A stretch of DNA of 64,000 nucleotides from Bolinopsis microptera (taxonomy: Eukaryota > Ctenophora > Tentaculata > Lobata > Bolinopsidae). The notes below the pieces were generated by a model. That model made no database searches and was not told the origin of the DNA. It was given only the letters and a program-made list of their open reading frames with translations. The position numbers and the translations under genes are program-made. Position 1 is the first letter of the stretch; each line of letters begins with the position of its first letter. Of the stretch, positions 714-47,310 are shown one piece after another. The stretch covers positions 7,543,726 through 7,607,725 of the forward strand of contig NC_087074.1 of NCBI RefSeq assembly GCF_026151205.1, read 5' to 3'.

Positions 714-1243
714 TTTTTATTATTTTTATTAAGATTGTTTTTAAACGCTACTACTACTTTTACTCTTGAAACACTATGGTTTTTCTTTGTTCCACACGGC
801 ACTAGTATATAATAAATAATAAACTTCAGATTTTAACGATTACATTTACTCATCAAACTATTTTAATTTTTGTGAGGGTCAAAAGTATCAAAACTCGTGT
901 CGGAAATATCAAACACATGATGTATATGTGTGACTGCTACGTATGTAAACTGTGAAAGTAATATTTTAAGTAGGAGGTCTGTAGTTTAAGGTTGATATAG
1001 GTGTACCTTAAAAATATCCGTTTTAAGTGTGAGTTTAAGTACCAACTTAAGCGTGAGTTGATTTGGTGAATACCAAATTTAAGGGATTTTAAGTGTCACC
1101 CTTAAAAATTAAGGGTGACACTTAATCGGGAATTTGGTGAATACCATTTTAATAAAGTTGCCACTTAAACTCCTTTTTAAGTCCGACCTCATACTTAAAA
1201 CGCTGTTTAAGTATGACCTAAAGGTTGGTGAATACGGGCCTAA

Positions 1244-2750
1244 GACTATAAATATCTAAAAAGTCAGTTTCACGAACTGAAGTATTATTTTTATTAGTAA
1301 TCATCTCTGGAGGATATATTTCACTTAAAACTCGTTCTAATAGACCAAAATCATATATAAGACCATGAAGATTATACTTTTCCGAGCCACCGTTGAGCCT
1401 GTATTGTTCTATGGCTGAGACCCATTGGATATCAGTTAGTTGCTGTCTGATAACTATAAGCGTATCAATGGCTGTTACAGTAGGCCCTCAACAGTTGAAT
1501 ACCATCCCCAATCCAACAGTGATGATTAGTCGAAGCATAATGAAACTAACCAAGTATTTAGCAAGACACAATGATGAACTGGCCGATCAAGCACTTTTTG
1601 GGATTCCCAGCATGAAATAACAGCACCTGTTTCAAAACAGTTAAAGTTAAAGATTAAACTTACCGTTGCCTAATTCTGAGAACATGGAACGCACACGTGC
1701 AAATATGATTTTACGCGCGAATTACCCAGAAACTGAAACTTAATGCTGAAAGAGAATCTAGATTGCGTCGCGCGGGGAATAATTTTGGTCACGTACATCA
1801 TTTTGTGTTCCCTTTTAAATACAATTACCAGTGCAGAGAGTGGTTTCAGAAACGCAAATTCAACTTGCAAAGATGAATTTACCTGGGAACGGTACCTCGC
1901 TCAGGCTTTTGTATTTATTAAGTTAAACACATTGATTTAACATTGAACATATTATGGCGATTAAAAATATGCCTATAGCAGATAGGGCGGAATGACAGGT
2001 TCAGCAACGCCCAGGAATTACAAGCAGCAAATTCTGCTACTGCTAGTGCAATCAAGGAGAATCAAAGCAAATATTATAGTGGTACCGTATGGCATGTCCA
2101 TTCTGGGTCAGCGTTGTATAGGTTGCATGGATAAGTCCCTGCTTGCTGTTGGCGTTGATGCGGTGATGCTAGCTGGAACAATTGTCGGAGAACTCTTTGG
2201 CTTCGTACTCTCTTCACTTCTTTCTCCGCACAAAACTGTTTAATCCGTGGGAGGCCCTGTTATTCAAATAAAGTTCTGAACCGTCAATCAAGCGTTTAGT
2301 TCTAAAACTGGTTATGGAAATTGTAGTTTTGTAGCTTTTCTCATAACTATCGTCCTATCGAACTGATGATCAATAAACATCACGCGGTTTGCTACAATTA
2401 AGTTGATATAAGGGGTCGTTTACATATCAGCAGAGGGGTCTTCCAAATTGCAAATGATTACGATTGACCATATGATATTGTAATTTTGGCACAATAGCAC
2501 AATACTAATAGCGATACCCGGATTTAACATTTAAACAATTTGTAATCGTATTGCCATGCAGTGTTTGTGTAACTCAAGTTAGTAATCGCTTTTCTTGTCA
2601 AAAAGTTAATATTTATTTCCTTCGATGGTAAATTATTTTGTCCTAAATTCATTTATTTTCTAATAATATAAAATTGGTTTAAGACCAATACAATGTCAAT
2701 AAGTCATGTGGCATGTAAGGCGCCAAAGACAAATTGCTAAAAGGCGCGGC
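1244..2750. other. Unassigned stretch, no supported gene
   Basis: Short open frames at 1393-1620, 1743-1940 and 1992-2243 resemble no family I recognise. They lack consistent splice structure, although the last is moderately hydrophobic. The rest is AT-rich and featureless. Confidence 0.5.
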
Positions 2751-3010
2751 GCAACTGCTGAAAACTGCTACAAACTGCCACTAACTGCCACTAACTGCTA
2801 CAAACTGCCACTAACTGCTACAAACTGCCACTAACTGCTGCAAACGGCGCGCGCAGTGCGTGGGCGCGATTGTAGCAGTTAGTGGCAGTTAGTGGCAGTT
2901 AGTGGCAGTTTGTAGCAGTTAGTGGCAGTTAGTAGCAGTTAGTGGCAGTTTGTGGCAGTTAGTGGCAGTTAGTAGCAGTTAGTGGCAGTTTCTTTGCACT
3001 TAGCTCCTCC
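2751..3010. mobile_element. Foldback element made of decamer repeats (copy 1)
   Basis: Nine decamers of consensus AACTGCYRCW run left to right from 2751. They are followed by a CG-rich centre (GGCGCGCGCAGTGCGTGGGCGCG) and about 13 decamers in the opposite orientation. The right end reads TTTGCACTTAGCTCCTCC and matches the terminus of the second copy at 4313-4476. The left terminus is eroded. There is no coding capacity. The structure matches foldback (FB-type) elements, whose inverted arms are themselves tandem repeats; which transposase moved it is unknown. Confidence 0.7.
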
Positions 3011-3026
3011 TGTGCTGTGACGTACC

Positions 3027-3342
3027 CTTGTAGCGCGATGCAATACTGGGTCGCGCGCGCATCAAATAATGATTCTCGCACACTCAATAAGGCTTCTCAC
3101 AGCTAGATCGGCGAAATGCACCACTGTGCCTCACCGAGCTGCGAATGATTGACATCGTGAATCAAAACGTACGCGCGCAACCAATTACAAGGCCAGAATT
3201 TGATCACGCTCAAAGTGAGCGTTAATTGACGATGTCAATTCATGGCAGCTCAGCGCGGCTCAGTAGCGCATTTCGCCGATCTAGCTGTGAGAAGCCTTAT
3301 TGAGTGCGCGGCGCGGCACAGTAACGCATCGCGCTACAAAGT
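3027..3342. mobile_element. Inverted-repeat (MITE-like) element, about 315 bp
   Basis: The outer arm TTGTAGCGCGATGCAATACTG near 3028 is inverted at about 3320-3342 with few mismatches. A longer inner arm (3077-3160), containing CTCAATAAGGCTTCTCACAG, is inverted at 3228-3310 at roughly 85 percent identity by eye. No open frame and no clear target duplication are visible. It is a non-autonomous inverted-repeat element of unknown family, directly next to the decamer foldback element. Confidence 0.6.
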
Positions 3343-3462
3343 GAGCGCTGTACTCTAAAACACGCGTTTACGATTGGCCAAAACTGCGCCACGTGATATA
3401 TTTTTAGCCAATTAGGACGTCAGAATTGCATCATCTGAGATGACACACATATCATATTATTT

Positions 3463-3825
3463 CGAGAAGAAAGCGGCGCGCGCTACTTCGAAGAAATTTA
3501 GACGAGTAACATCCGCGTCAAATGAAAAAAGCGCCACAAACAGGGAGTGGCGCGTTAAATAAATTAAAATTGTTCGCTTTTTTGTTGTAGCTAGATGAAC
3601 TAGACGATCAACCGCGCGCATCAAATATTACTGGGCGGCGCTCAGCCTGTAATTTCGTTGCAGCTTTATTTAGCAGCTTTATGTTTATAAAATTATAGCC
3701 TGGGATGTACTATACAGAAAAATCAAATAATGTTTTTTTGTGCAATCGTATAGTTGACGGATATTACTTTCGCTCTTCTAAATTTCTTCAAAGTTGAAAG
3801 AAGCGCGCGCTGCTTTCTTTTCGAA
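3463..3825. repeat. Diverged inverted repeat with CGCG-rich arms
   Basis: GAGAAGAAAGCGGCGCGCGC at 3463 and following is inverted as GCGCGCGCTGCTTTCTTTTC near 3805. Both are flanked by forms of the sequence AAATTTCTTC. The arms are GC-rich in an otherwise AT-rich context. A further diverged direct repeat of about 45 bp (3867-3912 and 4107-4151, around ATCACCCGTTAACG / ATCACCTGTTAAAT) follows. This looks like an old, nested repeat cluster. Confidence 0.45.
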
Positions 3826-4312
3826 GTATTTGTAGGTTTATGTTCTACCAGGGCGCGCGCCGAGTTGGAACAAATATTCTACAAGTATCACCCGTTAACG
3901 AAATATTAGCTCGATGGCCTGAGCTCTGCAAGTGCTACGAAGCTGCGCGCAGCTGATTAGTTAGACTTTATTTGAAGTACATCGTAGGTTCATAACGCGT
4001 ATCAAGACGTGCGCTGGAACAGACTTGTCGACGGTCTTGGAATATAATATTTGGTCAAATATATATAATATTAGGAACAAATATAATATATTCACTATTT
4101 TAAACAAATATTTTACGAGTACAGTATCACCTGTTAAATTTTATTTAGCTTCCTCATTTACAATTTATTGCTCACTTCCAGCTTCTTAAATGTTAAAGCT
4201 TGAAATTAGCACGCGCACAAATTTTTTTTGTTTAACTGAGAAATAAAACATATAATAATTTTTGATTTTCTGAGCGTACTGAAGATGAAAACTATACTTA
4301 ATGCACATAACA

Positions 4313-4476
4313 GGGAGATTAAAGTGCAAAGAAACTGCTGCTAACTGCTGCTGCTAACTGCTGCTGACTGCTGCTAACTGCTGCTATCGCGCGCGCGCGC
4401 GCCATTTGCAGCAGTTAGCAGCAGTTACTAGCAGTTAGCAGCAGTCAGCAGCAGTTTATTTGCACTTTAGTCTCCC
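4313..4476. mobile_element. Foldback element made of decamer repeats (copy 2)
   Basis: The termini are GGGAGATTAAAGTGCAAAG on the left and its near-exact inverse ending CTTTAGTCTCCC on the right. Inside, AACTGCTGCT decamers face each other across an alternating CG core (ATCGCGCGCGCGCGCGCCAT). The terminus and the decamer match copy 1 at 2751-3010, so these form a family. The whole element is only about 164 bp and has no gene. I see no clear target duplication. Confidence 0.75.
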
Positions 4477-6170
4477 TATGAATGATGTTTTTATTGATCG
4501 TGAAACTTATGATAATTTTATTATTTACTGACTATTTACCAGTGTTGTGTGAAGCATGTAGGGCTAGTAATGTAATGCATCAGTGGTATATAGTAAGTGA
4601 GGGATTATATATATATATATAAATAATTCTATGTTCACCATTCATGTTAGGAAAAAAAATTTTTTGTATCATGTATTGCTTAAGATCACAGTATAAATGT
4701 AGATGTATGTAGCTCTGCTGTCTGCACTGCCTTTGCATGCAGCGCCTGTCAGGTATATAATCAAGAAAACAACAAACTTTCAAGATTGAAAAAATTGATG
4801 TTTGTCAGTTTGTGGATAACCTGCGACATTGTTCCTAGGGATTCACTTAAGTACTACATTTATTGTGATTCCTTTCTGTCTTCCATCCATGTCACTCATT
4901 TTAGAAATAGCAGATTACATATTTTGCTTATTTGTTGCACTTTTAATTAGTATTTAAAGCAAGTGAATCATGTTGCATGTGCCTAATAAGTGATACTGTT
5001 GTTACTTTTGACTATGATAAATGTCATGAAATTACAATTTTTGATTGATGTATTAGTTACATGGAGGTTACTATACACCACATTAAGCTTTACAGCTCTA
5101 ATCATCTAACTTTGCTGCTTAACTCGTCAGTAGCAGAAAATCAGTACAGACGCACCCAGCTTCGTCCTTTTGAGGAGGTAGAAAGTTTTAAAATAAATGA
5201 CACATTCCAGAGTAAAATCATGGGACACCCATCATTTGGCTATGATTAAGATGCACATCTTTATAGTACAATACGTGTACAATGTTACTGATCCAAATTA
5301 CTATTCCTCATCCCCTGATTGTTACACCACTGCCTCATGTTTGGTCATTTCACCACCTTGCACAGATCTTATTGCTGTGAGGTGTATTGGAAAAAATATG
5401 CTAGAGAGCTGTTTCAGCTTACTTTTGTTTATTCTGATTGCATCATGGGAAGCCAAAAGTAGCTAAACACCATGGATGATGCTACAGAGTTACAGGCACA
5501 AGATTGTAACCTTTTCCAATCTGTTACTCAATGGTATAACTTTTAATAGATATAATCAGGTTTTTATGACTTTTGATTGTTGTTCATATTTTTCTGATGA
5601 TTTGGATTGCAATACATGTCACTTGTCGAACAAATTTTAATAATAGTTTATCTATTCAACAAACTTTTAACAGTCAGTTTGATTTTTTAACGAAGTTTGT
5701 AATTATTTGGTTTTATTGCAGGCATTTTTTGTAAATCTGCAATAAATTCAATCTATCTCCGTTCTTGATTTGCTCAGAACCTGTATAATCTCTATCAGGG
5801 GTTACAGAGGTTCCAGAACTCTTACACCCACTGCAACAAATGATTTGGACCTCAACCTAATCAACACTCCTAGTACTTCTTAAAAGGTCAGGGAGTGCTT
5901 GTTGGGTGAGGATCTGAATTGCTTGTTGTAGTGATGTCAGTTTGTAAATATGGTGAACTCTATTTTTAATTTACCAATTCGTAAATTGTTAAGGTTTTTT
6001 TTCTACCCTGGTTTTTAAAACTTTCTACCGTTTTATTGCATTTATTGTATTAGTTTTTATTTTTCAAAGGTGTCCAAACTTATAGCAGGACATTTTTTGA
6101 AAACATTTTTCTTTTATATAACTTTTTAATCTATCTCTGTGTTACTTACTGATAAGATTTTCCATTCAGC
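4477..6170. other. Upstream region of TENT5
   Basis: Short open frames at 5061-5249 and 5197-5466 resemble nothing I recognise. The stretch ends in a splice-acceptor-like run, TTTTCCATTCAG, at 6158-6169, one base before the TENT5 start codon. A 5' untranslated exon could therefore lie here, or the site may receive a spliced leader. I see no clear TATA box and cannot place the promoter. Confidence 0.45.
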
Positions 6171-20339: not shown

Positions 20340-21851
20340 TTACATAATAGCCCATGTGGTCTTTTGCCACGAGTCTGCTTCAGGTGAGAGCTGAGTGTTT
20401 ATTTTAGGAAGTAACTGCTTGATATACAGTGATTGCCAGATCATTCGGTCTGCATAATCCTTACATACTTTGAGGACTTCAAATTTAAATGGTTCGATAG
20501 GAATTTCTTTTATTTCAGGGTGTGACATGAGATAATGTTTCCCCATGGCTGTCTTGTTATTTTTATTCCTTACAGATTTTAGGTGTTCCCAGCATCTGTT
20601 GCGTTTGAACCTGCCTGTTTCACCACAGTACTTTGCATTGCAGATATTGCATGTCAGTTTGTACGCTATGTTCTTCTGCATACATAGATCATCACAATCA
20701 TAGCACTTTGAAGCACTCTGTTTGTTGCATGGTGTAGGGTGTAGTGCTGATCTAGTGAGTATTTCTCCCAGTTTCTTGTCCGGATAAAATGATACTTTGG
20801 TTTTGTCCAATAGATCATTTTGACGTAGAATCTGATATACTTTCCGTTTGTGGTATTCATTAACATATGGGAGGCTTAGGTACTGTGTGATTCTCAGTCG
20901 TGTCTGGTTAGGTGGTTTATCTTTGTTTATTTCCCTCGTCAAACTCTCTATAACACTGGGTGTAAAATCGTTGGAGAGTAACATGTCTTTGATTTTATTT
21001 ACACCACGTTGTTTGAATTCGTCTGTAGATCCATTTCTCACTGCTCTTAACAACTCGTTCCTAGCACTATTCATAATAGTACTTCTCGGATGTCCAGAGT
21101 TGTAGTTGAGGAATATGCCCAAACTTGTCGGTTTTATGAAGAGTTCGAATTGTGGTTTATCTGAGTTCTCTTGCAAGTGGATAGTGAGATCTAAGAAGTC
21201 TATTTGTTTAGGGTTAGCTTCATATGTGAACTGAATTTTCGGGTTAAGCGTGTTAACATACTTAAAGAGTTGACTGACGTCATTTTCTGTTCCTTCCCCT
21301 ATAGTGATACAGTCATCAACATACCTGTTCCAGCAATACACAGGCATGAGATTTGATGGTCTATCTCCTGGTTCAGCTTCACTGTATGTGAAATCTTGTT
21401 CCAGTAATGGTTTCTCTACTGTCAAGTATACGTATATGATGGCAAATGGTGGGGCTGGTTTTACTCCCATCCCTAGTCCTTCCGTTTGTCTATAGTATTG
21501 TTCATCAAATCTAAAATATGCAGACTGAGTCACGGTTTTCAGCATAGTGACAAAGTCAAGGTGTTCTATCCCAAGCATATCGATTTTATCCCTGTGATGT
21601 TTGATAAAGTCTGAGACCACTTTGACTCCATGTTCCAGTGGGATGTTGGTGTATAGGCTCTTCACATCGGCTGTTATGAGCATGTGATTGGAGTTTATTG
21701 AGCATTGTTGCAGTCGCTGTCGGGCCTCAGTGGAGTCTTTGAGGTGAACAGGTACATACTGAAGGGCTTGTTTCAAGATGTGGTTGGTAGCATGTCCAAG
21801 TCTCTCTCCTGGTGAGTCAACTTGTGATGTTACTGGTCGTAGTGGGGGTGT
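20340..21851 (-). CDS. Penelope-like reverse transcriptase / GIY-YIG endonuclease, N-terminally truncated
   Basis: The frame is open from the element boundary at 21851 to the stop at 20340, giving 503 residues with no internal stop. Reverse transcriptase blocks appear in order: PPLRPVTS at the start, TADVKSLYTNIP (about 60-71), GLGMGVKPAPPFA (about 126-137) and the catalytic RYVDD (about 176-180). After a linker comes a Cys cluster (KCYDCDDLC) and a GIY-YIG-like domain opening AYKLTCNICNAKYCGETGR (about 396-414). The motif that normally carries the catalytic glutamate (R-x-x-x-E-A-L-Y-I in relatives) reads RMIWQSLYIK, with Gln in place of Glu, so the nuclease may be inactive. The N-terminal part of the polyprotein is missing, so this copy is not autonomous. 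The long intact frame suggests a fairly recent insertion. Confidence 0.9.
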   Translation of the reverse strand, partial: TPPLRPVTSQVDSPGERLGHATNHILKQALQYVPVHLKDSTEARQRLQQCSINSNHMLITADVKSLYTNIPLEHGVKVVSDFIKHHRDKIDMLGIEHLDFVTMLKTVTQSAYFRFDEQYYRQTEGLGMGVKPAPPFAIIYVYLTVEKPLLEQDFTYSEAEPGDRPSNLMPVYCWNRYVDDCITIGEGTENDVSQLFKYVNTLNPKIQFTYEANPKQIDFLDLTIHLQENSDKPQFELFIKPTSLGIFLNYNSGHPRSTIMNSARNELLRAVRNGSTDEFKQRGVNKIKDMLLSNDFTPSVIESLTREINKDKPPNQTRLRITQYLSLPYVNEYHKRKVYQILRQNDLLDKTKVSFYPDKKLGEILTRSALHPTPCNKQSASKCYDCDDLCMQKNIAYKLTCNICNAKYCGETGRFKRNRCWEHLKSVRNKNNKTAMGKHYLMSHPEIKEIPIEPFKFEVLKVCKDYADRMIWQSLYIKQLLPKINTQLSPEADSWQKTTWAIM

Positions 21852-21880
21852 ATTATGAGTATTGCTGAAAGCACAGTGTA

Positions 21881-22748
21881 CCTTAGTGCAAGAAATATAG
21901 GCGGCAAGAAATTAAGGCGATTCTGACAAAATCGCCTTAATTTCTTGCCGCCTTAATATCTGACCACCGTAATTTCTAACCGCCTTAATTTTTTTTCTTG
22001 CGATTTTTTCATAAGAAATTTTCGTGTGATTTTATTATTTTAAATTTACATGTCGATTTCGTTATTTGCTAGAATTCAATGAAATACATATTTAAAATAA
22101 ATTAACTTGAGTCTAAATACATTAATATATCAATTAATATTCTCGTCTTCTCCTTCTTCATCAGAGTCATATATCTCCAGCAGCTGCAATCCATAACCAA
22201 GATAGTCGTCGTCATCTTGCTCCGTCGTGTCTGGAAATAGCTTCTTGATAATATCAGCTGATTCATCCTCCAAACGTTTGTCGAAGCTGTACTTTTCGTC
22301 GACTAACTTCTTGAGGAGCGTTATTCCCTTCTCATTGGTCCATGAAGCAGTTACAGATACATAAAAATTCCTTGCCGCGTACAGAATGTGCACTATCATT
22401 TTGTCAAATGCAATGAATATACCAATTGACTTGCAGTTTGCTGATGTAGTGGATGTCTACCTAATTTAAAATTATAAACTTAGACGACAGAACAGCAATC
22501 ACTATAAATATAATGTGCATGCACCATTTAGTTTTTATGTGACCAATGTCCAATATATCGTATTTTTAAACAGATTTCTATGCTTTATAGACTGATAAAA
22601 GAATAAAATTGACACTATTTCGACCAAAACTATAACCAAATTTGCGATCAAAAATCGTATTTTTTCCGAAAAAAATATCGCCTTAATTTCTTGCCGCCTT
22701 AATTTCTAGCGCCTTATATTCTTGCCGCCTATATTTCTTGCACTAAGG
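21881..22748. mobile_element. 868-bp foldback DNA transposon inserted without target duplication
   Basis: Perfect 30-bp terminal inverted repeats start CCTTAGTGCAAGAAATATAG. Inside each end, copies of TTAAGGCGGCAAGAAA recur, and the left end folds into a 21-bp-stem hairpin (21900-21953). The same host sequence occurs uninterrupted at 22999-23108. Removing exactly 868 bases restores the two 110-bp copies to equal length, so nothing was duplicated at the target (GTGTA / AGGCC). One 89-codon frame lies inside. The superfamily is not identifiable; insertion without duplication is unusual for an inverted-repeat transposon. Confidence 0.85.
22130..22399 (-). CDS. Small acidic protein inside the foldback transposon, function unknown
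   Basis: An 89-residue frame with a predicted helical, mixed-charge N-terminal half and a very acidic tail (EQDDDDYLGYG, DSDEEGEDEN). It starts with ATG and is the only sizeable frame in the element. I recognise no domain. It could be the remnant of a transposon protein, the end of a captured host gene or a chance frame. Its base composition is more balanced than the surrounding AT-rich transposon sequence, which favours a coding past. Confidence 0.35.
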   Translation of the reverse strand: MIVHILYAARNFYVSVTASWTNEKGITLLKKLVDEKYSFDKRLEDESADIIKKLFPDTTEQDDDDYLGYGLQLLEIYDSDEEGEDENIN

Positions 22749-40350: not shown

Positions 40351-42881
40351 GGTGCTAGAAGGGAGGGAGTGTGGTTAGTTGGGAGGTGTTAATAGTGTGT
40401 TTACTGGAACATAAAGGGTTTAGAATGTGGAGTGGGGGTGGGTTCTGGTTTTACAAACTCAGAGGGGGTGTCAGCTGGTATAAAGCTCAAAATAGCACAG
40501 AATACTGCTGTTACTACCCAGGTGATGCAACGACAGGGGTTCTCGCAGGTTCTACATGATATGTGATGATACTTATATATAAGTTATAATAATAACAAAT
40601 AAACAACTTGCTGGTAACACATCGCATACCAGTAAGGAACGTGGAAACTTTTCATTCTGTAGAATAAATTTTTTTTTCGTTCTGAGGAAATTGTGTGCTG
40701 TGGAATGTTTGATTCTGGGCTGATGGAATAGGAGTCTCTGGCCTTATAAAGCCATAAAAAATGTTTATAGTTTATCAGGAAAGTCTATAAATTCTATCAT
40801 AACCATAGGAACCACCAATGTAACCACCATAGGGACCACTTTGATATCATATTATTTATTCCAACTCATTCTGAGTGTGTTCAACTCCTATTTATTCTAC
40901 TAATTCTACTATTGCTATTATAACACAGAGTGTAGAACATCAGGTGTACCTGGATGACACACTATTGCAGTATGATGATCGTACCACATAGGACTTAAAG
41001 GACGCTAATAATTATGTAGATTGTAGACACGCCCTCTGATGTACTCAGCAGAAGATTGAACACGTAATAGAAGCCAACACTTAGGATCCTATAACTTCCA
41101 GAGTAGGATGTACTCAGTGGGTATAGGTTCATGAGGGGCGTGTAAAGGTGATTGTTATTACTCATCACAGCGTTACAGACTGCAGTGAGCAAGTTAGCTA
41201 GGACTTAGGATCTAGCAGGAGGAGTGTAACAGAAAGTGAGGGCCATGTTACAAAGTGTATTTGTAAACCTCATGTGACACGGCGTGTGACACATAGTGTA
41301 CAGTATTCATAGACTGTGAGTATAGAGCAGTACTTGACACGGAACAGATTACTTCTGATCTAGAGGGAGTAAAGAGAACCAGAGGTTAAAAACAAGAGGA
41401 ATAACCTGCACCAAGCAACATTGTGCCCGAAGCACTGGGACAGACCGGAGTAGAGTGAACTAAAGTGTATTTCTTTCTGCGTTGGTTCTTTTACTATTGT
41501 GTGTGGACAATGGACTGTGAAGGAATCTTTAAAGAATATAATTAGTAGATAAGTTGTAGAGGGAATATAGCAGATCATATTTAGAGGATAATAATAATAA
41601 TAGAGGGAAGTTGATGAGAGTTATAGGAACACACATCAGAGGAGGATGGTAATGTGAACGTTAGTGTGTGAGTTTTAGCACCTCAGTGCGATGTTGTAGA
41701 AATATAAGACACAGCAAATATAAGACACAGGTAGTGTAGACCGTAGGTTCTGGAGCGTGGGTTAAGAAGCGTCATTTCAACTTAAGGGGTTCACATATTA
41801 CGTAATCAGCCGAGAGGAGGGGGGGGAGGTTTCTAAATGATAACGCTAGTGTAATTTTGTCACAATAGCTTAAAAATGGTCCAAAAAATGATTACGTAAT
41901 ATTATGTGAACGGTCCTTAATTAGAGTCATAAGACTCTGCATAAGACTCTGCAACTATAAGACTCTGTAATATTAACTAATAATGTAATTTCAGGACGGC
42001 TGTCAGCCAACTGGCACATGAACATGCTCATAATAAATTAGACTCATTAGTCAGAGGCAGAACTATATTATCATATTTTAGCACTGTATATAATGTGCTG
42101 TACGGGGCCCCTGTTGGCCATGAGGAGTTGTTCCACTAACAGAAGCAGAACTACAGCACTGTATATATATTGTGCTGTATATGGGGGCCCTACAGCTACT
42201 GTTATACTGACATTACATTCAGTGTGGCCAAGGACTGTTACTTAATTAGTACGTGTTTTTCCGTTAATCCCAGAAATTAGTCCTCAGATTCATTGCAAGT
42301 TGGTGGCTCATACAATTGAGCTGGACTTTCCGTTCAAATTATTCCGCGAAATGATATTTGAAGAAAGTCGATTATCTCAAGATAAAAACACACACGTACC
42401 AGTACCAGCTGTTATACCCGGTAGAATTTAATTAAATTAAATTTGTGTCCTGTGTTAGTGGTATAATTCACACTACTATGAAAGCCCAACAATTAGGTGG
42501 TTCACTGTTCACCACTTAAGTGGTTCTCTGTATGACCATGAAGAAGAGACTCAGAGATTGTCTCGCAATTTCCAGGGCAGTGCTATAGCATATTTTCTCC
42601 AGGCTTCTACGGACACACTTTTAAAAATAAGCATTTTAAGGTATATTATGATATATTATATATTTATATTGCTTCATATGTTGTTGTATCTAAATATGGT
42701 CATTACGAACATTTTGCACCTATTCGGAAGTCTCTGTGACTTTCCTAGGCCAATTTACAACTCACCTATCTCTAAATTTCGAGTTTTTTTTTTCGAGCGA
42801 AACCAAAAATGAGTTTTTCGCTAATAATTCGAAAAGTAAGGGTTTTAGGTCGTATTATGTTGTTTCATAAGTTGTCTATAA
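40351..42881. other. Region upstream of NUDCD1, no supported gene
   Basis: No frame here shows family features. It contains a repeat copy at about 41404-41500, a G-rich patch near 41815, and two similar tracts around GTGCTGTA...GGGCCC at about 42091 and 42171. A promoter for NUDCD1 must lie in this area if the gene has an untranslated first exon, but I cannot place it. Confidence 0.45.
41404..41500. repeat. Dispersed repeat, copy 1 (CGAAGCACTGGG family)
   Basis: The stretch ACCTGCACCAAG...GAAGCACTGGGACAGACCGG...GTGTATTTCTTTCTGCGTTGG has a relative at 46245-46350. The conserved centre is GAAGCACTGGGWCRGACCGG. It may be a SINE fragment; no tRNA boxes are convincing. Confidence 0.5.
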
Positions 42882-43709
42882 GGACACGTTCATTGAAGTT
42901 TGAGGATATTGGTAAATATTAGTGACCCTACTAAATGGCACGATGATGTAAAATGTGTCACACCATAAAACTATATAAACCCTGAATGGTTAGGATAATC
43001 GTTTCATCCTCTAGATAAACTTTGTCGCATAACGATATCTTTATCAGACGATAAGATATCGCTTAAATGCGGCCGGCAGTGAGTTGTAAACTTTGTCACA
43101 CTATAAAAACGTGACAGAGTTTATATGGACCCCTTGTTGCCGTGTTTGACCAAATTTTCGAATTTAAAATTTATAGGATAGTTGCATATGACCATTATCT
43201 ACATATTTAGCGACTTTTTTCGTTAAATGGTAGCACCATGTAAACTCCGTCACACATTTAAGTTTTTTATATGAGGGATGTTTATGACATCCTGACAAGA
43301 AATGCCGAATAGTCTACATTATTTTGTGAACTGAATGTGTTTGGAATTGTTCACATATTTCATTGTTATAGGCAAATACAAATACAGAAGGCAGAAATAG
43401 GTAAATTTAGTCACATAAATTTGTATGATATCTCAACATGTGTGAAATTGAGTAAATATTAGTATACCAACTTAAACACCCTATATTACGTACTATGGAT
43501 CAATTAACAATATTTCAACCATACGCCGGTCATATAAATTATTATATGGCAGTGATATGTTAACATTGGCAAAATTCCAACACCTGAACAGGGTAAAAAT
43601 TTGTAAATTTCGTCACAAAAAAAATATTATAACTTTATTTGCTCCGTGTTGGCAAAATAACTAATTTATCGACATAGTGATGGTGATAAAGTAACATTAT
43701 ATACTAATT

Positions 43710-44480
43710 GAGGTATGATTCTTCAAAATAGGGGCAAGAAATGTAAATTTCGTCACATCAGCCATAGCATTAGTTAGATAGATTTTCTTTCATATCAACT
43801 GCCCTTATTATAGCTAGAATGGATTTATACAGGAAATATAGAAACCCATGCCCATTTTTCATCACATTGAAATTATACTGTTGGGGCAGGAAAAGTAAAT
43901 TTCGTCACATTTCGGTAAATTAGTGATATCAAACTCAGCATTGTTAAACTTGGGTTCTGATTTGCTGAAAAATAACCAACCAATAATTCCTGGAAGAAAA
44001 TTGAATTTTAACGGAGGTATGGTTCTTTAAAATAGGGGCAAGAAATGTAAATTTCGTCACATACGTAATTTTAAAATTTAGATAGATTTTATTTCCTACC
44101 AATAGTCCTTATTATAGTCGGAATGGATTTATACAGGAAATATAGAAACCCATGCCAATTTTTCATCACATTGAAATTATACTGTTGGGGCAGGAAAAGT
44201 AAATTTCGTCACATTTCAGTAACTTAGTAAAATTAAACTCAGCATTGTTAAACTTGAGCTCTATTTTGCTAAACAATAACCAACCAATAATTCCTGGAAG
44301 AACATTGAATTCTAACCGAGGTATGGTTCTTCAAAATAGGGTCAAGAAATGTAAATTTCGTCACATACGAGTACGTCATTGTAAAATTTAGATACAATTT
44401 CTTTCACGTGAACAGTCCTAATTACAGTCCGAAACGATTAATACAGAGATACAGGAAATATAAAAACCCCTGCCATTTTA
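43710..44480. repeat. 304-bp tandem repeat, about 2.5 copies
   Basis: GAGGTATGRTTCTTCAAAAT starts at 43710, 44014 and 44318, exactly 304 bases apart. Each unit holds two copies of the 16-bp motif, about 152 bases apart, followed by CACAT. It makes up the left half of the 42.9-45.6 kb element. Confidence 0.92.
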
Positions 44481-44566
44481 TAATGTATGTAATATGTTAA
44501 TCACAGACTATTTCATTCTATAATCATTGTTTCCAAATTTAACCTATTTATGATGTCTTATCATTT

Positions 44567-44990
44567 TGTGACGATGTTTACATCAACTGCCCTATACTTG
44601 AATCAACTGTATCCGTGTATCATCCTTATATAGAGTTTTCCCGCAAAATTTAACTTATTTACGATGTCGTATCATTTTGTGACGATGTTTACATCAACTG
44701 CCCTATACTTGAATCAACTGTATCCGTGTATCGTCCTTATATAGAGTTTTCCCGCAAAATGTAACCTATTTACGATGTCGTTTCATTTTGTGACGATGTT
44801 TACAACAACTGCCCTATACTTGAATAAACTGTATCCGTGTATCGTCCTTATATAGATTTTCCCCGCAAAATGTAACCTATTTAGTATTTACGATGTCGTA
44901 TCATTTTGTGACGATGTTTACATCAACTGCCCTATACTTGAATCAACTGTATCCGTGTATCGTCCTTATATAGAGTTTTCCCGCCTTCCA
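44567..44990. repeat. 111-bp tandem repeat, four copies
   Basis: TGTGACGATGTTTACA starts at 44567, 44678, 44789 and 44907 (spacing 111, 111, 118, the last with a 7-base insertion TAGTATT). Units share CTATACTTGAATCAACTG and TTATATAGAGTTTTCCCGC. The motif is reversed relative to the 304-bp array. Confidence 0.93.
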
Positions 44991-45558
44991 AAGCAAAATC
45001 AGATATAAATGATTTCGGAAATTCACCCAGAATTTCAAATTCCATATAATGTGACAGAATTTACATCATTTCCCAATAACCAAGTGCATGTATTAGCTAA
45101 CTTTTCAAAACAACATATTTTAGGGCTATGATTGGCAGAAGAACCATCAAATAATGAGTTGAAAGGGTTTTGAGGACACCTCACAGTAGAAAAGAGGTCT
45201 CGTATTTTGAGTGTGACAAAGTTTACGAAATATTGCCTTAAAGCCGTTCGATCACTGCCCTTTAACCAATGTTGTATCATAATTGTTAGATTGACCTAAT
45301 CTACTATATTTCAGTCCAAGGAATAATAATTGGGCAGCTATGGTAAACAATGTCACAAAAATGTGACATTTTTTACATTATAGTGCCTAAAAGCAATACA
45401 TTTTATTTCTGAGCAGTGCATATGGGAGTATGGGTCACGTGGCTAATGTTCAGAACTTATGAACACGCTAGATTAATAGATGCTAAAATTAAGCCACTAT
45501 CGTCGAAAACGCTATTTTAGAAATTTACCAATATCCTCAAACTTCAATGAACGTGTCC

Positions 45559-47310
45559 ATAAATATGTCTGTATAACTATAAATATACTAGTTCTGTTTT
45601 GCACTTCTCCAGAAGTCTGTAATACCTTCCAAACGAAAAACTAGTAATATATTGACAAAAAACAACAATTTTCAATTTTTCCAATATAGATCTCGATTCG
45701 CGATTGTCTTCAAACCATCATTTGCCTTAGTTCAGTAACATGACCATTGCAGTCATTTTACACCCCCAATTGAGCTCCTGAGTGCCTTGCTAATGGCAAA
45801 CACAAATTTTAAAAGTTTGTTTAAACAAATTTTAAAAGTTTGTTTCTATGCACCTAGAGAAAATATGCTCTAGCTAGTTGTGCCCATCAGATCTACCTTT
45901 ACACCTCTTTGGGTGGTTCCTGGGACTATGGAAAACACATTCCCGCACAAAAATGTTAGTGGCAAATTATTCAGAAAATATTCATAATGCCATAACTATA
46001 ATTGGTCCTAACACACCACCCCTGAGCATTTCCTGCATAATCTCCTAGGATAACGTAACATGTTAAAAGAAGAGAGATCTATTACACAACGTCCCTATTC
46101 CCTAATAGCCGATAAAACACATACAAACAGGTCACAGGACACGTGCCAGTATTAACTATCTGTAAACCACACATCTCACAACATCTCACCACTATAACCA
46201 CTTAATACCACTATTACCACTTAATACCACTATTGTTAACTTTGCTACCTGCACTAAGTCTCTTATTCCGCCTGAAGCACTGGGTCGGACCGGAGTGACT
46301 TAAAGCCTATTTTACTCTGATTTTGCCTTTTTTCTATTGGTCTTAATATCTCGGCTTCCGGGCTTGTTATAATTCCTCCTCATTTGTCATCAGTGCTCCA
46401 CCCACCTTAGTTTTTACAGGATTTACGCGTTTATTATTCTAATATAGTATAGGATAATATGATTTAAATAATAGATTCATTTTTATAAAATTTGTGATCA
46501 AGTTAGTGCAAAACTCTCAATTGATCTCATGCTGATATATCGCCAAAGTTTCTGTGACAACCCCCATCTACTAATCTAGTTATAGTAAAATAATTAATTT
46601 TTTTTAATACCTACTAAACCGGAGTTTACCACGCTGTTCTAATCACAGTTAGTTAGGTGCCGTAATCCGTTGCAAATATAAAAAATAATTATATGTAGCC
46701 CCGGAAATCAGAATGTTGCAACAGAGCCAGAGTTTTTAAAACACCAGCTGAAAGATAAAGCTGATCATTAGTCATTATATTATATACAGCTGCTGCTGAG
46801 CTGCTCCAATTGTGTAACAGCACACAATGAGTTTTGCAATAGTTGTACACAGCACCCTGTAAAAGTCACGTTGGTAATTAGAACTAGTAAAATGATGGGA
46901 GGACTCAGGGGGGGGGGGGGGGCTCAGTTATACAGTTAGATTAGATGCAACTGAGGCCCCTCCCCCTAAAATGCACTTAAACCACCCTCGCCTTCCCAAA
47001 ACTTTTAGCTGAGCCCCAACCCCTCCCCCCTCATCCCAAAAGTAGCTGAGCCCCCACTTTAAAGTTGGTGTAGTAGTGTGAGTGTAACAGAGGTGGGGCG
47101 TTGTAACTCTCACAGCTTTATCTTAGTAATATAACGGTTATTGTTACCAGAATTAGTCTTGTTTAGGAGATGTTAATTTAACAAGTTTTATGTTACACGA
47201 TAGACTTACAATATAGTTATATATACGATGTTATCAAGTACAGTGTAGTAGTGGTCTCAGTATGACAGTAGAAAGTAGGCAGCCCCACAGTTGATTAAGT
47301 TCTCGGATTC
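45559..47310. other. Intergenic stretch
   Basis: No supported gene. It includes a 23-bp duplication (CAAATTTTAAAAGTTTGTTT, 45802-45847), the second copy of the dispersed repeat at about 46245-46350, and a 15-base G run at 46908-46922. Confidence 0.5.
46245..46350. repeat. Dispersed repeat, copy 2 (CGAAGCACTGGG family)
   Basis: It matches 41404-41500 in the same orientation over about 100 bases (ACCTGCACTAAG, TGAAGCACTGGGTCGGACCG), at roughly three quarters identity by eye. Confidence 0.5.

Follow-up and report, generated by a model that had tools for sequence, protein, structure and literature searches.

Window positions 42882-45558 hold a complete 2,677-bp element, the window being the whole 64-kb stretch of Bolinopsis microptera DNA that was analysed, and this element is probably a young, non-autonomous cut-and-paste DNA transposon with bipartite sites that serve a protein of an autonomous relative, either its transposase or one accessory to it. 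Between its family (A) and a sister family (B) in the same genome, one half of the bipartite motif is switched at every site that can be aligned while the other half is fixed. This coordinated half-site switch points, on sequence evidence, to a protein with a specificity that changed along with the elements, most likely a transposase or an accessory protein acting in trans. The switch between sister families is what is new here; subterminal binding arrays themselves were already known.

The element is bounded, as an earlier note on this DNA had claimed, by perfect 36-bp terminal inverted repeats at 42882-42917 (plus strand; GGACACG...GGTAAAT) and 45523-45558 (minus strand), which reach 39 nt at 97% if extended. 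It lies between two copies of a 4-bp target-site duplication, ATAA, at 42878-42881 and 45559-45562. It is also gene-free, with no recognisable coding: all open frames, taken from stop to stop, are of 86 codons or fewer, the four longest have no Pfam match, and an Rfam search of 42000-46500 gave no match. The G+C content is 0.33, compared to 0.39 for the whole window.

Taking TGTAAA-N4-GTCACA as the pattern with at most two mismatches, 19 motif sites are found in the element, named here by their position counted from its start (el66 begins at window position 42947). The left half has 11, ten of them forward: el66 (42947-42962), el204 (43085-43100), el358 (43239-43254), el519 (43400-43415), el721 (43602-43617, the exact 16-mer), el861 (43742-43757), el1013 (43894-43909), el1165 (44046-44061), el1317 (44198-44213) and el1469 (44350-44365), the sole reverse-facing site being el229 (43110-43125). 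The right half has eight, of which seven are reverse, namely el1686 (44567-44582), el1797 (44678-44693), el1908 (44789-44804), el2026 (44907-44922), el2169 (45050-45065), el2331 (45212-45227) and el2481 (45362-45377), and one, el2461 (45342-45357), is forward. The opposite-facing arrays of about ten and about eight sites described in the earlier note are therefore present as ten forward and seven reverse sites, with one contrary site in each half, and 17 of the 19 point inwards from their own element end. Each exception pairs inversely with a neighbour (el204/el229 and el2461/el2481), and both inverted pairs lie ~200 bp from the respective end. When the exact 16-mer is used as query, again with up to two mismatches, 14 sites are found in the element, none in each of 300 dinucleotide shuffles and none in the other 61 kb of the window, so that the motif count does stand above that of shuffled sequence.

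Two tandem arrays, both located with Tandem Repeats Finder and both on the plus strand, contribute to this number: a 304-bp repeat of 2.2 copies with two motif sites per unit (43710-44369) and a 111-bp repeat of 4.0 copies with one site per unit (44535-44984). The two halves had been thought to be built of these different repeats; both repeats exist, but they fill only part of each half, and while nine of the 19 sites lie inside the arrays, the other ten are outside at irregular spacing.

In the Bolinopsis microptera assembly (264,652,675 bases in 232 contigs), where the window occupies G000:C3:7543726-7607725, a genome search for the ends and the motif, as proposed earlier, was productive for both. 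A 29-nt piece of the end with up to three mismatches gives 507 + 515 = 1,022 matches, which possibly represent families A and B together (the B end differs at two of the 29 positions), against 0 + 0 for a reversed control, and the motif with at most one mismatch gives 536 + 471 matches against 5 + 11 for its control. Exact ends are present on every one of contigs 1-13, and the left 741 bp have 97-99% identity to the window copy in the best 39 of 1,193 candidates. Among the loci read, 20 copies retain both ends at five or fewer mismatches. Nineteen of them, counting the window copy, belong to family A and one, L064, to family B; in 20 of 20 the 4-bp flanks are identical. Together with the roughly one thousand genome matches of the end, these flanks strongly support the mobile inverted-repeat element with target duplications that had been suspected. 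As L047 and L048 have common flanks they are counted as one insertion, which leaves 19 independent insertions. The flank consensus is ATAT (per position, A in 16, T in 18, A in 19 and T in 16 of the 20), and TTAA occurs in none of the 20. A further copy, L065, has a degraded left end (7 mismatches) and flanks that do not match, and stands outside the 20.

The near-perfect conservation of the terminal repeat partly reflects how the copies were chosen, as they were found through it. In a sample of 101 exact ends following TTAT (60) or ATAA (41), 66 pair into 33 elements and 35 are left single; since the pairing demanded complementary flanks, it is no independent test of the target-site duplication. 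Twenty-nine of the 33 paired elements measure 2,178-3,262 bp and the rest 627, 6,688, 10,333 and 17,066 bp, the last probably not being one element, as another end lies within. The 627-bp pair (G000:C5:18443002-18443628) is a miniature form bounded by exact end cores, its ATAA/TTAT flanks being complementary; it may have arisen by internal deletion, and would then reveal the minimal mobile unit. The number of motif sites per copy ranges from 13 to 24, with a median of 18 (19 family A copies). The earlier note had named copies sharing the tandem units without the 36-bp ends as evidence against its reading, and this check did not refute it: copies with both ends carry the arrays. One-ended, truncated copies exist too.

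Within family A the motif is not singled out. Stronger conservation of its 11-base core than of its surroundings was expected and was not found in 18 copies: changes affect 18 of 990 core cells in the left part and 28 of 792 in the right part, and 163 of 8,638 and 344 of 8,216 cells outside the core, respectively. This is as expected if copies decay neutrally after insertion, and evidence for function must consequently come from the history of the families and not from the copies. The earlier observation of a motif preserved amid diverging sequence thus holds when the sites of the element are compared with one another and, in the GTCAC half alone, when family A is compared with family B, but not among family A copies.

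Family B was found through ends with a different inner neighbour (13 sites), which led to L064 and L067. The order of parts in L064 is that of the window element, running from the end through dispersed sites, a ~304-bp array and a 111-bp-like region to the right end, and parts of it match many genome places at 86-92% among the matches listed. The B-type motif has 706 + 615 matches genome-wide, against 18 + 32 for its control. The parts of the window element that can be aligned to L064 are el1-1040 and el2109-2677, in which 211 of 847 left-hand and 59 of 469 right-hand columns outside the motif differ (13-25%). Twelve of the 19 family A sites fall within these parts, the other seven being array sites, and el66 was excluded as it is deleted in L064, leaving 11 sites for comparison.

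At all 11 of these sites motif position 4 is A in family A and T in family B, changing the half-site from GTAAA to GTTWA or similar, whereas at positions 11-15 (GTCAC) none of 55 bases is changed. Elsewhere in the motif, position 16 is changed at 1 of 11 sites and positions 1, 5 and 10 at 6 of 11 each (55%), the next-highest change after position 4. In a profile of offsets from -45 to +60, the positions outside the motif are changed by a mean of 21% and a maximum of 50% (90 offsets with at least eight sites), and GTCAC is the only five-column run without change. The compared sites were chosen by their fit to the A consensus in A, a choice which alone cannot make position 4 the only one to change; as el861 and el1013 sit in the array, the independent switched sites number nine to eleven.

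Other copies bear out the two states. In family A, 158 of 162 cells have A at position 4 (nine sites in 18 copies, with the duplicate L048 omitted), and the second B copy, L067, has T at the four right-hand sites. In the first 100 of 336 genome matches to one right-hand site, copies with B flanks have T in 67 of 67 and those with A flanks have A in 31 of 33 and C in two, so that the state follows the family-specific flanks in 98 of the 100 listed, one flank per group being off the usual form. A site on the left has 265 matches, of which 100 were listed, and the 43 that have letters divide into 18 of 18 GTAAA with A flanks and 25 of 25 GTTTA with B flanks. The proposal that a sequence-specific DNA-binding protein recognises the motif, made earlier from the repeats of the window element, gains its support from this A-to-T switch at 11 of 11 sites, which suggests such a protein by comparison of sequences.

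Two observations touch on the direction and course of the switch. The site at 43558-43573 (plus strand) is degenerate and broken in family A, reading TGTTAACATTGGCAAA, but intact and of B type in family B, reading TGTTAACAGTGTCACA; as a guess, the broken site may be the relic of a B-type site in A, and the B-type may be the older state. In L063 a related element carries a mixture of half-sites, position 4 being A in some and T or C in others, indicating that the switch is not all-or-none in every lineage, and this element may be an intermediate or a decayed copy.

It is unlikely, though the best-surviving of the alternatives, that the element is a transposon whose motif array is bound by a host factor, such as an architectural protein, a transcription factor or a silencing protein, and not by the transposition machinery. 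A host factor would likewise give clustered sites, and there is a ctenophore precedent in Mnemiopsis leidyi, for which the account of chromatin looping describes ctenophore-specific zinc-finger proteins bound at loop anchors and DNA-transposon insertions at >90% of looping promoters (PMC12221973). The loop motif, compared here by its description in that account, is GC-rich with two CpGs (PMC12221973), whereas the present motif is A+T-rich with at most one. The arrangement of the sites, facing inwards with mirrored inverted pairs, also argues against a host factor, as does the half-site state tracking the transposon family, and escape from a repressor should lose sites and not rewrite them to one new consensus.

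It is very improbable that the stretch is a satellite seed, with repeats made by tandem duplication alone and a motif preserved only by the recent origin of the duplicates. Two true tandem arrays are present and the number of sites varies among elements, as this would have it, but ten of the 19 sites are dispersed beyond the arrays, the arrays sit within defined transposon ends, and dispersed sites with flanks that were not homogenised could not have undergone a parallel A-to-T change through duplication. Least credible of all are a viral or plasmid replication origin or iteron region and a rolling-circle (Helitron/Helentron) element. Short direct repeats in arrays do resemble iterons, and a paper on the Helentron DINE-1 (PMC4067079) is reportedly linked with subterminal and tandem repeats, but terminal inverted repeats with identical 4-bp flanks, as in 20 of 20 copies, are not expected of rolling-circle insertion. 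Helitrons and Helentrons are not known to make a duplication, and the duplications here refute Helitrons; the lack of recognisable coding and the exact ends on all of contigs 1-13 also speak against this reading.

The preferred reading, a non-autonomous cut-and-paste transposon, agrees with the general form of terminal-inverted-repeat DNA transposons, inverted repeats being found at both ends of complete copies and a duplication of constant length, 4 bp, in 20 of 20. The P superfamily and hAT elements make 8-bp duplications, while those of Sola, which has a DDD transposase, and of Chapaev, Academ and Ginger are of 4 bp; Chapaev ends in CAC and Ginger in TG. The duplication length here is that of Sola, Chapaev, Academ, Ginger and Kolobok, a resemblance that for Sola, as length alone, does not establish membership, and the GGACACG ends are unlike those of Chapaev and Ginger. 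With its ATAT-like 4-bp duplication and GGACACG ends, the element is not CACTA, hAT, P/Galileo, Kolobok or piggyBac: the 8 bp of hAT, the 7-8 bp of the P superfamily and Galileo and the TTAA of Kolobok and piggyBac were not found, nor were CACTA ends with the 2-3 bp duplication of EnSpm. The duplication of Kolobok is a 4-bp TTAA (PMC9587614), in contrast to the ATAT-like one here.

In organisation the element is nonetheless close to several of these systems. Spm/En-type CACTA elements of maize and soybean (Tgm/Tgmt) are likewise represented by non-autonomous copies with subterminal repeats of a short motif; defective Spm/En-type copies are described as keeping their cis-acting ends with these repeats, which TNPA recognises, and the account of the soybean Tgm/Tgmt subfamilies holds that their motifs have diverged and that the binding proteins are thought to have diverged in parallel (PMC2613891). 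As CACTA elements are characterised in the relevant section of a second source, their ends are CACTA, not GGACACG, and their duplication 3 bp, not 4 bp (PMC8978399). In addition, and unlike Spm/En, the sites here reach ~1.4 kb inwards on the left and 1 kb on the right, and a tnpA/tnpD-like gene was not found in the loci read. Galileo of Drosophila, a member of the P superfamily, also includes non-autonomous copies, and tandem repeats have lengthened their ends. These repeats were proposed to hold secondary transposase sites, and multiple sites to be favoured for attracting more protein; as presented in the part of the paper dealing with these repeats, the secondary-site proposal concerned one subfamily and drew on the authors' then unpublished evidence (PMC3573991). 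The differences are a 7-bp duplication and inverted repeats averaging 668 bp in that description, against 4 bp and 36 bp here (PMC3573991), and the different arrays in the two halves of the window element. Hermes, a hAT element, is similar in the arrangement of its sites: the sections describing its ends report numerous subterminal repeats, with runs of several in a single orientation close to either end and with quasi-palindromic pairs, and propose that the BED domain of the transposase binds them (PMC10368747). As a difference, the paper argues that additional transposases bound deeper within the ends are probably not required (PMC10368747). The Hermes motif, by the same description, is of about four bases, unlike the bipartite motif here.

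A mechanism can be proposed along these lines. A protein supplied from outside the element, in all likelihood by an autonomous relative as its transposase or an accessory protein, would bind the TGTAAA and TGTGAC half-sites through two recognition surfaces, load the subterminal DNA and help to bring the element ends together for a transposase encoded elsewhere, upon which the element would be excised and reinserted at A+T-rich sites. Tandem duplication of the 304-bp and 111-bp blocks would have multiplied the binding sites, and the added sites would attract more protein to the element. If the protein of the autonomous lineage then changed, only elements with sites changed alongside would have kept moving; the change of one half-site at every alignable site in family B, with the other fixed, would fit such a co-change of protein and sites. 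More tentatively, and with some doubt on our part, A and B could be orthogonal transposition systems that split in one genome, with two diverged proteins and nine to eleven or more sites rewritten in parallel around a fixed other half, in what is possibly an undescribed superfamily.

How a many-site element follows a changed binding specificity is puzzling, since this requires a joint change of all its sites. The two families would provide a base-by-base record of a change in specificity, in a genome where each state exists in many copies alongside a candidate intermediate. This makes it directly testable whether a DNA-binding protein and its selfish targets have co-evolved; A and B could also supply non-interfering transposon systems from an early-branching animal. 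Among the open-licence papers searched, none was found on non-autonomous terminal-inverted-repeat elements of ctenophores, and none on the coevolution of subterminal sites.

The autonomous partner was sought in 19 long, divergent or one-ended loci (L039-L045, L059-L067 and L072-L074), the elements read being a few tens of perhaps 500. These loci contain 231 stop-to-stop frames of at least 70 aa after a simple-sequence filter, and 82 of the 231 were run against Pfam, giving RVT_1 in ten, zf-RVT in four and host-type domains in single frames. The sole transposase match was a DDE_1 fragment of 85 aa in L043, among other nested repeats, and a transposase gene assignable to the element's family was not found in these frames. 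The further suggestion of the earlier note, that the binding protein may be a transposase, may well be right, although no transposase gene of this family was found in the copies read. Two frames in L060 (1746-2057 and 2195-2494) are hAT-like by eye and have no Pfam match.

Several loci were set aside as candidates for the partner. Reverse transcriptase frames are present in L039, L040, L044, L045 and L073, while L042 carries two unassigned inserts, one end of L043 and of L045 is not recognisable, L059, L060 and L072 are truncated, and L061-L063 and L065-L067 are rearranged or partial relatives. The 10.3-kb paired element has a reverse transcriptase insertion inside, and the 17-kb pair was rejected on account of the end inside it. 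L041 was likewise rejected, as it holds a nested ~3.8-kb element (772-4607) with inverted repeats of ~640 bp at 94% identity; the split coding region of this nested element has no Pfam assignment and a cysteine-rich stretch at its end. A different nested DNA transposon probably lies at L043:2227-6257, where other inverted repeats (CGGACCTTATTTGGACGGACATTAAATG) accompany the DDE_1 fragment.

A 292-aa frame in L064, with relatives in L061 and L074, was also rejected as a gene of the element, as its 1.14-kb unit occurs elsewhere without transposon flanks: at least eight other genome copies have no adjoining flanks, and six of these have both ends at matching positions to within a few bases. In L064 the unit terminates in (TTTCA)n-like repeats, and it is taken for a nested LINE-ORF1-type retroposon. 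It lies at L064:4018-5162 (G000:C9, ~637.7-638.8 kb), with relatives at L061:5205-6098 and L074:1-610. Its one frame of ~292 aa resembles LINE ORF1 by eye and has no Pfam match above the cut-off, the unit is without reverse transcriptase, and many of the listed genome matches to the protein have open frames; the repeat is perhaps an ORF1-only, HAL1-like retroposon family.

Three further observations were made at other places. A 736-aa frame at L066:2808-5015, near two tandem copies of a related end, combines a nuclease-related NERD domain with a part resembling a P-loop ATPase, and is probably a host gene. In the window itself minisatellites are abundant, with 101 Tandem Repeats Finder rows in the 64 kb, overlapping rows included. 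On the minus strand at window 20340-21911, a 523-aa frame has a weak RVT_1 match (E 0.0009, below the cut-off) and a C-terminal part that is GIY-YIG nuclease-like by eye, and it is perhaps a Penelope-like element.
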